Assembly (NCBI RefSeq): GCF_001672295.1
Contig: NZ_JXMS01000012.1
Span: forward strand, 1 to 64,000
DNA: 64,000 nucleotides
Source: Halodesulfovibrio spirochaetisodalis
GTDB taxonomy: Bacteria > Desulfobacterota > Desulfovibrionia > Desulfovibrionales > Desulfovibrionaceae
Reading direction: 5' to 3'
The translations under genes and the position numbers were made by a program. The notes under the pieces are model-generated. The model saw nothing but the letters and a program-made list of their open reading frames with translations. It did no database searches and was not told where the DNA came from. Below are positions 13,750 to 17,836 of the stretch, in pieces (positions within the stretch are counted from its first letter, which is position 1; the number at the start of each line of letters is the position of its first letter).

Positions 13750-15375
13750 ATGTCCCCCATGTTAAACGATGCTGTTGATCGCACGAAAAATTTCTGGTCG
13801 AGCATTACCCTGTCGCAAAGGGTATTTATCGGCGGTCTTGCTGTTACAGTAGTAGGCATATTCTTTGCCTTGCTGTTCTGGCTTAATAAGCCAGATATGC
13901 AGTTGCTGTACTCAAATCTGGCTCTTGAGGATGCGAATAGAATCGTCAAAGTTTTGCAGGCTGAAAAGGTTGCATACAGCTTGGAAAACAGCGGTTCCAC
14001 CATCCTTGTTCCGGCTGACAAAGTATACGATATGCGTATCAAGATTGCCGGTGACGGTGGTTTAACAGGGCAGGGCATTGGCTTTGAAGTGTTTGACGAC
14101 GTGAAGGTCGGTCAGACAGAGTTTGTACAGAAAATTAACTACCAGCGTGCTTTGCAGGGCGAACTGAGCCGTACCATTACGGAATTCCCTGCGGTTGAGT
14201 CTGCAAGAGTGCATTTGGTAATTCCTCAGAAAAGCTTGTTCATTGAGGAAGAAATGCCGCCGTCCGCTTCTGTTGTTTTGACCCTTGGTGAAGGGAAGAA
14301 AATGACAAACAAGGACGTGACAGCGGTAGTAAACCTCTTAACCATGTCTGTTGAAGGTCTGCAGAAAAGCCGTGTTTCAGTGGCAGACACGAAAGGTACT
14401 GTGCTCTATCATCCTGAAGATGAAACTTCCATCGAAGGCATGACAGCAACACAGTTTGACCACAAACAGACTATCCAGAGAAATCTGGAAATGCGCATCC
14501 AAGATCTTCTGTATCCGATCATCGGTGCAGGTAAGGTGATTGCGAAAGTTAACGCAGACCTTGATTTCAGCCAGAAAACAATTCGTAAGGAACTGTTTGA
14601 TCCTGAGAGCTCCGTTGTTCGTTCCGAGCAGAAAAGCGCGGAAACAACAAGCGGTCGTGCTAACATGGAGGCTGGCAGTGCAGATGCAAACTTCAGAGGC
14701 GACGGTATCAACGGCAGCTTGAGCCAGCAGGACGCAACCCGCGAAACATCCACAACAAACTACGAGATCAATAAAGAAGAGCAGAATATCGTGACCCCTG
14801 TGGGTCAGATAGATCGCCTTAGCATCGCGGTTGTTGTTGATGGTATGTACGCAGCGGATCCTGAGACCGGCGCAATGGTATTCACCCCGCGTACTGAAGA
14901 AGAGATGGCACGCATTAACGCTCTGGTTTCCAAAGCTGTTGGTTTTGAATCAGCACGCGGTGATGCTATCGAAGTTTCCTGCATCGCTTTCGGCGAGCTG
15001 AATGTAGAGCAGGAACGCAGCCTTGCAGAGGTTATTGGCGATTACGCATTACGCATGGGTAAACCGATCCTCAACGCAGTACTCGTCTTCCTCTTCCTTC
15101 TCCTTATTGTTCGTCCGGTTATCCTCGCACTTATTCGACCAAAAGTTGAAGCAGGTGAGGTTATGGAAGGGCTTGAAGGTCTTCCAATGGGCGAAGAGCG
15201 CATAGCGCTTATTGAAGGTGAAGAAGAATTGGATGCACTGGATGCACTGAAGAAGATCGAAGACATTAAGGCGCATGCATTACAGATTTCAGAACAGAAC
15301 ATGGAACAAGCTGTAGGCATCTTGAAGTCTTGGCTTAAAGATACCGGAGGACATAAAGTTGGCCACTCAGCTTAA
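13750..15375 (+). CDS. fliF: Flagellar MS-ring protein FliF
   Basis: A 541-residue MS-ring protein: a transmembrane segment at about residues 25-45, a periplasmic ring domain (LALEDANRIVKVLQ, YQRALQGELSRTI), a variable serine- and acid-rich middle, a second transmembrane segment at about 437-460 and a C-terminal FliG-binding tail. A Shine-Dalgarno-like GGAG precedes the ATG. Its 3' end overlaps fliG by 17 nt. Confidence 0.95.
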   Translation: MSPMLNDAVDRTKNFWSSITLSQRVFIGGLAVTVVGIFFALLFWLNKPDMQLLYSNLALEDANRIVKVLQAEKVAYSLENSGSTILVPADKVYDMRIKIAGDGGLTGQGIGFEVFDDVKVGQTEFVQKINYQRALQGELSRTITEFPAVESARVHLVIPQKSLFIEEEMPPSASVVLTLGEGKKMTNKDVTAVVNLLTMSVEGLQKSRVSVADTKGTVLYHPEDETSIEGMTATQFDHKQTIQRNLEMRIQDLLYPIIGAGKVIAKVNADLDFSQKTIRKELFDPESSVVRSEQKSAETTSGRANMEAGSADANFRGDGINGSLSQQDATRETSTTNYEINKEEQNIVTPVGQIDRLSIAVVVDGMYAADPETGAMVFTPRTEEEMARINALVSKAVGFESARGDAIEVSCIAFGELNVEQERSLAEVIGDYALRMGKPILNAVLVFLFLLLIVRPVILALIRPKVEAGEVMEGLEGLPMGEERIALIEGEEELDALDALKKIEDIKAHALQISEQNMEQAVGILKSWLKDTGGHKVGHSA

Positions 15376-16360
15376 AGGCGCGGATAAGACCGCCGTATTA
15401 CTTCTGGCGATGGGAGATAAGTTCACCGCCGAGACGTTCAAGCGTCTCGACCGTGCAGACATCGCTCATATTTCAAAAGCCATGATGGAGCTGGACACAG
15501 TTCCAAAAGAAGATGTTGAAGATATCTTACGTGAGTTCCATCACTCAATGATCTCAGGCAAAGATATGATTACCGGTGGCGAAGATGCTACCCGTCGTAT
15601 GCTCCTGAAGAACCTTGATAGTGAAACAGCCAAGTACATCATGGATACTCTTGAGCTGGATAACGGTCCTGCACCGTTCCGTGAACTTGAAAACGTAAGT
15701 CCTCGAATCCTTGCCCAGATCCTGCGTAACGAACATCCGCAGACACTGGCACTTATTCTCGGTCACCTGCATTCAGATCAGGCAGCAGAGCTTATCCAGA
15801 TGCTCCCTGCCGGTATCAGACCGGAAGTGCTTATGCGTCTCGCCCGTCTCGAAGCAGTACCGGAAGATATGCTTATGGCAGTAGACAAAGTATTGCAGAG
15901 CCAGCTTATCGCAATGGGCGGCAAGGAAGGCAAGAAAGTGGGCGGCATCGCTGCTGTTGCAGAAATTCTCAACGCAGTGGATCGCGCTACCGAAGAAGAA
16001 GTACTCGCAGAGATCGAAGAAGAATCTGTACAGATGGCAGAAGACATTCGAAACCTCATGTTCGTATTCGAAGACGTGGCAACACTGGATGGCCGTGCAA
16101 TCCGCGAAGTGCTGAAAGAAGTATCCAACGACGATATGACTCTGGCACTCAAAGGTGCATCCGAAGACATGCAGGACGTATTCTTCAGCAACATGTCCGA
16201 ACGTGCATCCAAAATGATCAGGGAAGATTTGGAGATCATGGGACCTACAAAGCTTTCAGATGTAGAGGGTGCACAGCAGGCGATCGTAAAAATTGTTCGT
16301 CGTCTGGAAATGGAAGGACGTATAGCCATCGGACGTGGAGGCAACGATGTATTCATTTAA
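15359..16360 (+). CDS. fliG: Flagellar motor switch protein FliG
   Basis: A full-length 333-residue rotor protein. The N-terminal FliF-binding, middle (EHPQTLALILGHL) and C-terminal torque domains (LDGRAIREVLKEV, LKGASEDM, MSERASKMIREDL, GPTKLSDVEG) are all present. The charged residues that face the stator in E. coli have counterparts here: the K of LKGA, the R of SER, ED of RED and K of GPTK. The start is TTG at 15359 with GGAGG 8 nt upstream. Its last codons double as the ribosome binding site (GTGGAGG) of the next small gene, whose ATG overlaps it by 14 nt. Confidence 0.95.
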   Translation: MATQLKGADKTAVLLLAMGDKFTAETFKRLDRADIAHISKAMMELDTVPKEDVEDILREFHHSMISGKDMITGGEDATRRMLLKNLDSETAKYIMDTLELDNGPAPFRELENVSPRILAQILRNEHPQTLALILGHLHSDQAAELIQMLPAGIRPEVLMRLARLEAVPEDMLMAVDKVLQSQLIAMGGKEGKKVGGIAAVAEILNAVDRATEEEVLAEIEEESVQMAEDIRNLMFVFEDVATLDGRAIREVLKEVSNDDMTLALKGASEDMQDVFFSNMSERASKMIREDLEIMGPTKLSDVEGAQQAIVKIVRRLEMEGRIAIGRGGNDVFI

Positions 16361-16814
16361 CACAAGTTCTGATTCAATTGTATCTGCTCCGGCAATGCCG
16401 AAATTCGATGACCGTGGTATCAGCGAACTGCTCAATGACGCTGCAGGAAAAGACATGGCACATGCTTACAGCGCAGCTTTTGATGCGGTTTCCAGCGAAG
16501 CTGAATTTTCTTTCCATGAAGAGGACAACGATATTGCTGTTCCTAAGCTTGATGACCGTGGAGTCTGCGAGCTGCTTGAAGAAGATATTTGTACTGCTGA
16601 ACCGGCACAGGTTGCAGAACCGGTTGTTGAACAGCATCAGGCTGCCTTCTTTAGCACTATGTCTGATCGTGCTTTCAAGACTGTTGATGATCTGGAGAAT
16701 ATTGTTGCGACAAAGCTTTCAGATATCGCTGGCAGTCAGCAGGAACTCATGGAACGTATCAAAATGAACGGACGATTTGCCGCAGGGCACGGAGGATACA
16801 ATGCCTATGTCTAA
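16347..16814 (+). CDS. Chimeric FliH-N/FliG-C small protein 1
   Basis: A 155-residue protein not known to me as a flagellar family. The first ~20 residues (MYSFNTSSDSIVSAPAMPK) resemble the FliH start encoded downstream (MPTSNVISAEMLAEPATPK). The rest resembles the FliG C-terminus: FDDRGISELLN, then a second partial copy LDDRGVCELLE, then AFFSTMSDRAFKTVDDLE, TKLSDIAGSQQ and a tail GHGGYNAYV like FliG GRGGNDVFI. It overlaps fliG by 14 nt with GTGGAGG 5 nt before the ATG. The reading frame is intact despite strong divergence, which suggests it is kept. Torque-site residues are partly retained (SDR, DD, TK). A modifier of the rotor or export apparatus is one possible role; this is speculation. 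Confidence 0.8.
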   Translation: MYSFNTSSDSIVSAPAMPKFDDRGISELLNDAAGKDMAHAYSAAFDAVSSEAEFSFHEEDNDIAVPKLDDRGVCELLEEDICTAEPAQVAEPVVEQHQAAFFSTMSDRAFKTVDDLENIVATKLSDIAGSQQELMERIKMNGRFAAGHGGYNAYV

Positions 16815-17085
16815 CAGTACTTCTGAATCCGTATTGTCCTACGCAGTAGAACAGAAATTTGACAGCCGCGGCAGTCGTGAATTGCTGAATGAAGCATCAA
16901 TTGATGATATGCTGGCACATAACGACGCGTTTTTCAGCAATGTTTCTGACCGTGTTTTCAAAGCGATAAAAGGAAACATGGAAGATATTATTTCTGCAAG
17001 TCTTTCCGGTGTGGTCAGCACACCCAAAGCTATGTCTCATCTTGACGTGAAGGGAGGCGTAGGAGGCAGCGATGCCTACCTCTAA
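16801..17085 (+). CDS. Chimeric FliH-N/FliG-C small protein 2
   Basis: A 94-residue protein, a second copy of the same kind. The FliH-like start MPMSNSTSESVLSYAVEQK is followed by FDSRGSRELLNEASIDDM (compare FliG LDGRAIREVLKEVSNDDM), AFFSNVSDRVFKAI (FliG FFSNMSERASKMI) and the tail GVGGSDAYL. It has lost more of the FliG charges: the RED position reads KGN and GPTK reads ISAS. GGAGG lies 5 nt before the ATG, and it overlaps both neighbours by 14 nt, as the first copy does. Function is unknown. Confidence 0.78.
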   Translation: MPMSNSTSESVLSYAVEQKFDSRGSRELLNEASIDDMLAHNDAFFSNVSDRVFKAIKGNMEDIISASLSGVVSTPKAMSHLDVKGGVGGSDAYL

Positions 17086-17836
17086 CGTTATTTCCGCAGA
17101 AATGTTAGCTGAGCCGGCTACACCTAAAGGTGTAGCTGCGTGGGGTACCATTTTTACCGGCCCCGGTTCTGCCAATGAACATACCCTTGAAGGGATGGAA
17201 GGCTCCCGATCAGGCCAGTGGGATGATGCCACAGAAGCCATGTACATGGAGCGTGTTCGTGAGCGCGCTGCAGAGCGTGCTTCTGGAATTCTTGCCAAAG
17301 CACGTGAGGAAGCGGAGTGGCTTAAAGAAAAAGCGCGTCAGGAAGGGTATGAGCAAGGTTGCCAGCGTGCTCAGGATGAACTGACCGCGTTGCAACAGCA
17401 GCATGCAGACTCAGTTTCAAGTGTGCTGGGTGCCATTCAAGGGCAATGCTCAAATATTTTTGACAGCTGGCGCGGTGACTTGGTTGCCATCGTCCGCTCT
17501 GCCGTCGAGCGTATGTGCGCTGTGGAGATGTCAGAAAACCGTCAGGCATCTTTGGAAAAGCTGTTTTCAGAGGCTGTTCAGATTTTGGATGAGCGCAGGC
17601 AGCTTGTTATTACCGTACATCCTGATGATGAAGAGATGGTCACAGGTATTATCCAGAACGCACAGCAGCACTACACCGGTCTTGAAGCCTGGAAGGTCAA
17701 AGCTTCTGCAGCGGTTGCTGCAGGCGGCATCCTTGTTGAGAGTCAGGATGGTATGGTCGACAATACTATCACCAGCCGTCGCGTAGCTGTAGATGAAATT
17801 TTAGACCAGCTTATGATTCCAGAGGATCAAATATGA
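17072..17836 (+). CDS. fliH: Flagellar export ATPase regulator FliH
   Basis: A 254-residue FliH. An N-terminal variable region is followed by a long alpha-helical segment rich in A, E, K, R and Q (about residues 65-125) and a C-terminal globular domain that binds FliI. FliH holds the FliI ATPase and docks it at the export gate. GGAGG precedes the ATG, and the stop overlaps fliI as ATGA. Its first 20 residues recur in the two small genes upstream. Confidence 0.9.
   Translation: MPTSNVISAEMLAEPATPKGVAAWGTIFTGPGSANEHTLEGMEGSRSGQWDDATEAMYMERVRERAAERASGILAKAREEAEWLKEKARQEGYEQGCQRAQDELTALQQQHADSVSSVLGAIQGQCSNIFDSWRGDLVAIVRSAVERMCAVEMSENRQASLEKLFSEAVQILDERRQLVITVHPDDEEMVTGIIQNAQQHYTGLEAWKVKASAAVAAGGILVESQDGMVDNTITSRRVAVDEILDQLMIPEDQI

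Follow-up and report, generated by a model that had tools for sequence, protein, structure and literature searches.

Two extra open reading frames between a complete fliG and a complete fliH in Halodesulfovibrio spirochaetisodalis pose the question of where such frames came from and why they have stayed open within a flagellar operon. They lie in the cluster flgC-fliE-fliF-fliG-fliH-fliI, which occupies ~12.9 to 19.1 kb of the window (the whole stretch of 64,000 nucleotides analysed); fliG and fliH were identified by Pfam, and flgC, fliE, fliF and fliI are names given from sequence. The initial annotation had described frames of 155 and 94 codons, here ORF1 and ORF2, joined to each other and to their neighbours by the same 14-nt overlap and GGAGG at all three junctions, and we verified the lengths, positions and reading frames as well as the junctions. 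The features are given below in window coordinates.

15359-16360, plus strand: fliG, complete, 333 aa, TTG start; Pfam FliG_N, FliG_M and FliG_C over cut-off, 97% identity with the sister species; parent of the FliG-C part of the hybrids
16082-16360, plus strand: fliG source segment, codon ~242 to the stop, after the MFXF motif (FliG-CC, torque domain); from BLASTP alignments of ORF1 and ORF2
16337-16360, plus strand: junction 1, fliG/ORF1, GGAGG and 14-nt overlap (16347-16360); from sequence
16347-16814, plus strand: ORF1, hybrid FliH-N/FliG-C, 155 aa; BLASTP, sister-species orthologue, purifying selection
16347-16457, plus strand: ORF1 module 1, residues 1-37, FliH-like start and PKFDDRGISELL; 61% identity with the orthologue
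16458-16538, plus strand: ORF1 variable linker, residues 38-64; 6% identity with the orthologue, contains a 10-residue indel
16539-16586, plus strand: ORF1 residues 65-80, where the junction motif occurs for a second time, as VPKLDDRGVCELL; repeat family D1 and orthologue comparison
16641-16814, plus strand: ORF1 C-terminal FliG-like module, residues 99-155, with FFSTMSDR, KLSDIAG and GGYNAYV; repeat D2, BLASTP and orthologue comparison
16791-16814, plus strand: junction 2, ORF1/ORF2, GGAGG and 14-nt overlap (16801-16814); from sequence
16801-17085, plus strand: ORF2, hybrid FliH-N/FliG-C, 94 aa; BLASTP, sister-species orthologue; frame kept, protein-level constraint not significant
17062-17085, plus strand: junction 3, ORF2/fliH, GGAGG and 14-nt overlap (17072-17085); from sequence
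17072-17836, plus strand: fliH, complete, 254 aa, Pfam FliH; the hybrid starts derive from its codons 1-19 (17072-17128)

Composition and origin of the hybrid frames

BLASTP against FliG of the same genome aligned ORF1 with residues 240-333 (E = 4e-16, 38% identity) and ORF2 with residues 243-333 (E = 4e-10, 35% identity), while the two ORFs matched each other at E = 1e-10, and the likeness of the hybrids to FliG-C is far above chance. The parts that align to FliG 240-333, at about 35-40% identity, are residues 65-155 of ORF1 and 20-94 of ORF2, and a profile based solely on the hybrids recovered FliG-C in 230 of 288 genomes of the family, so that BLASTP and the reciprocal profile search both identify homology to the torque domain that follows MFXF. 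Neither ORF has the FliG_N, FliG_M and FliG_C domains and the TIGR00207 match over cut-off that define FliG, the motor switch protein: ORF1 gave a partial Pfam FliG_C match (E 1.7e-4; 22.3 bits, under the cut-off of 23.3) and 23 bits against TIGR00207 (cut-off 226.7), and ORF2 matched neither Pfam FliG_C nor TIGR00207.

At about 19 residues the FliH-like starts are short; they are convincing in view of FliH in the relatives and of the hybrids in the sister species. FliH in the relatives reads MSSSNILSGEILSDTAAPK followed by GVAAWGTIF, and in the sister-species hybrids ...APAAPK is followed directly by LDDRG, the start of the last domain of FliG; four close congeners have a FliH that starts MSSSN..SG.ILSDTAAPKGVAAWGTIF. 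At the DNA level, repeats at 16079, 16398, 16542 and 16852 connect the copies, and the second partial copy that had been noticed inside ORF1 is real. The earlier description of each hybrid as a FliH-like start followed by FliG sequence is thereby borne out by BLASTP, the repeats and the FliH of relatives, the start comprising residues 1-19 and the remainder a shortened form of the domain after MFXF.

In Desulfovibrionaceae fliG and fliH usually adjoin, and in nearly all genomes where they do, fliH overlaps the last 14 nt of fliG, which makes the overlap ancestral and the insert derived. We found the insert in only 2 of 288 Desulfovibrionaceae genomes, this one and a sister Halodesulfovibrio species in which both ORFs have intact orthologues, and a tree of six flagellar proteins places the two carriers as sisters with 100% bootstrap support. 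From this confinement it follows that the insert had a single origin, by tandem duplication in their ancestor, and the contrast between one ancestral junction in relatives and an in-register repeated unit in the derived lineage is that of a tandem-duplication chimera. The evidence from sequence thus supports the origin proposed in the initial annotation, in which the fliG/fliH junction was tandemly duplicated more than once, with the limits of the unit moved from fliG codon ~243 and fliH codon ~20 to about codon 242 of fliG, directly behind MFVFED, and codon 19 of fliH, breakpoints that are approximate at the present divergence; such a unit would account for both hybrids. The duplication may have left two or three extra copies, and if three, two of them would later have fused inside ORF1.

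The Halodesulfovibrio carriers are a small branch of marine sulfate-reducing bacteria. A scan of named genomes with ORF1 gave no match, and a same-genus genome of 86% completeness (G003) has no match to fliG or fliH and is hence uninformative on the insert. A second match in genome G051, from another Desulfovibrionaceae genus, was rejected as an insert between fliG and fliH, being a free-standing FliG-C-like protein encoded elsewhere (L129, G051:C56:30895-31167, minus strand 1498-2028). This protein, of 176 aa, carries an FTFEDF motif and the last domain, ends in GKGEVFI and lies apart from the fliG of that genome. Separately, the frame in the place of fliH is unusually long in four Desulfovibrionaceae loci (L045, L046, L047 and L102), at 398-543 codons against about 250. 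Our literature search found no report of hybrid ORFs arranged in this way between fliG and fliH.

Divergence and selection

Between this genome and the sister species FliG is 97% and FliH 82% identical, whereas ORF1 and ORF2 retain 43% and 35% identity. The corresponding dN is 0.47 for ORF1 and 0.66 for ORF2 against 0.014 for FliG and a median of 0.098 for neighbouring ORFs, a set that includes some spurious frames; the median neighbour dS is 0.95. As a separate observation, fliG has a dS of 0.35, far under those of fliH (1.96) and fliI (1.09), which suggests strong codon constraint in fliG.

Divergence this fast is what would be expected of duplicates that are decaying without selection and are open by chance, but neither frame is interrupted in either species, and in simulations of drift the joint probability of this was 0.001 at 0.35 substitutions per site, falling to <1e-5 at 0.7, the latter being realistic for this pair. 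All of the gaps (8/8) in a frame-blind nucleotide alignment of the two species are multiples of three, and the ATG, the overlap and GGAG or GGAGG are retained at 6/6 junctions across both genomes, with GGAGG beginning 10 nt upstream of the ATG at each of the three described here. Open frames, intact junctions and in-frame indels reject drift as the cause, and decay, to which we give very little credence, is already refuted unless the sister orthologues are misassembled. No Rfam family match and no unusual RNA fold was found at the junctions. Upstream, the TTG start of fliG is nested in the end of fliF with a 17-nt overlap (15359-15375), a junction of the same type as fliG/fliH.

Constraint on the proteins was assessed by comparing fitted omega with frame-preserving simulations at omega = 1 that were re-aligned identically. 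For ORF1 the likelihood ratio statistic against omega = 1 was 48.9, a value reached by none of the 300 null simulations, and for ORF2 it was 7.2, reached by 43 of 400 and not significant. ORF1 is therefore under moderate protein-level purifying selection, as judged from one species pair, with one genome per species and saturated synonymous sites. Its conserved parts are residues 1-37, 65-80 and 99-150, and no constraint was detected in the linker (38-64). Saturation of the fitted dS makes the omega of 0.04 estimated for ORF1 unreliable; at a neighbour-like dS of 1-2 simple arithmetic, as distinct from a fit, puts omega at about 0.25-0.5. The dN/dS comparison suggested in the initial annotation thus gives a value below 1 for ORF1. 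The claim that the copies are selected consequently holds for the frames and junctions of both and for the protein of ORF1, and at the protein level does not extend to ORF2.

The copies adjoin their parent, and repeated gene conversion from fliG could in principle have kept relaxed copies open. Synonymous divergence between hybrids and fliG is high, however, at about 1.6-3.9 over whole ORFs, where no low-divergence tract was seen at that scale, and the orthologues share derived features that fliG lacks (KLSDIAG, GGYNA and the same 3-residue deletion). Since synonymous sites are saturated between the ORF1 orthologues, their similarity does not stem from recent conversion, and we regard this account as scarcely credible.

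Retention of the frames and possible roles

We favour, at roughly even odds (0.5), a two-part reading in which the duplicated frames are kept mainly by coupling to fliH and ORF1 has additionally a function as a small protein. Each unit would have carried the ancestral overlap and ribosome binding site, so that a copy would arrive as an open frame ending inside the next start. Ribosomes would then reach fliH by passing through ORF1 and ORF2, and FliH output would fall if either of them acquired a stop or frameshift; this dependence is probably the main reason that the frames are open. Termination-reinitiation commonly couples overlapping genes. Using premature upstream stops, coupling was found in 13 of 14 overlapping gene pairs tested (PMC6728339). 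Each junction has a good ribosome binding site of its own, and fliH might thus also start without coupling.

Such a relay would account for frames and junctions conserved amid rapid sequence change, especially in ORF2, which may be little more than that. It is conceivable that nothing else is involved and that the protein sequences are irrelevant, given that frames, overlaps and ribosome binding sites persist at 35-43% identity and that ORF2 is compatible with omega = 1 in simulation, but the modules of ORF1 are kept far better than in any of the 300 neutral frame-preserving simulations, at saturated synonymous sites, and we find this simpler account doubtful. The constraint on ORF1 that a relay leaves unexplained is the reason for the second part of the favoured reading, under which the likeliest product of ORF1 is an accessory protein that is small and evolves fast.

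As to what such a protein might do, the initial annotation had suggested a bridge between rotor and export machinery or competition for either; on this view both hybrids would be adaptors or competitors, the FliG-C part acting on the rotor or stator and the FliH part on FliN/FlhA, and so tune torque or export. The selection on ORF1, the location in a flagellar operon and a torque-helix-like stretch of ORF1 in this genome (FFSTMSDR..DDLE..TKLSD) are in keeping with such roles; the lack of significant constraint on ORF2 is not. In Salmonella, FliH makes its contacts with FliN/FlhA through Trp-7 and Trp-10 (PMC9114704). From position and conservation WGTIF, which holds the only nearby Trp, is probably the counterpart in this genus, but the copied FliH piece ends upstream of it, and none of the four hybrids (ORF1, ORF2 and their two orthologues) contains Trp, the residue through which the FliH N-terminus makes those contacts. 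On the FliG side, MotA/B bind the torque helix (PMC11087270) through conserved charges (PMC11853002), and these are conserved neither between the ORF1 nor between the ORF2 orthologues: the Arg position of MSER is R in ORF1 and S in its orthologue, R in ORF2 and D in the orthologue of ORF2, and the ED pair is, in this order, DD, EN, GN and KD. Helix C2 (ALKGASED) is missing from all four, and two AlphaFold runs, on ORF1 only, returned low-confidence helices (pLDDT 50.4 and 59.1, pTM 0.15 and 0.19) with no confidently predicted FliG-C fold. The bridge is not supported by these findings; unconserved charges, the absent ALKGASED and the low-confidence helices make a FliG-like mechanical role unlikely, and we hold the adaptor or competitor idea to be improbable as well, though a short motif might still mediate binding. 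One tentative candidate for such a motif is PK(L/F)DDRGxxELL, the repeated junction motif, which did not exist before the duplication; there is a slim chance that it is the functional part of ORF1 as a new, lineage-specific flagellar protein modulating the rotor or the FliH/FliI complex.

Comparison with known systems

The hybrids resemble FliG-CC (Pfam PF01706) in the homologous region after MFXF and differ from FliG in having neither N nor middle domain nor MFXF itself, in the deletion of helix C2 and part of the last helix, in their unconserved torque charges and in a Pfam score under cut-off. With the FliH N-terminus they share the first ~19 residues, the start context and the 14-nt overlap with the upstream gene, but they end before WGTIF and lack the coiled coil and the FliI-binding domain. 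Every junction has the overlapping stop and start and the internal Shine-Dalgarno site of the coupled pairs studied previously (PMC6728339); here the overlap is 14 nt, two duplicate ORFs stand between the original partners, and coupling is predicted from the layout. If fliH is coupled through the hybrids, the reading frame itself would trap duplicate ORFs in the operon, allowing one of them to gain a function.

The locus offers a dated case of new bacterial genes born ready for translation, in that duplicating a unit with a stop/start overlap gives a frame already equipped with start codon, ribosome binding site and stop codon. Chimeric genes are known to form by tandem duplication across a gene boundary in Drosophila (PMC4503668), and the hybrids share that mechanism of birth; unlike the Drosophila chimeras they are bacterial and lie in a core flagellar operon, and since the duplicated unit contains the start/stop overlap they were already in frame and had ribosome binding sites at birth.
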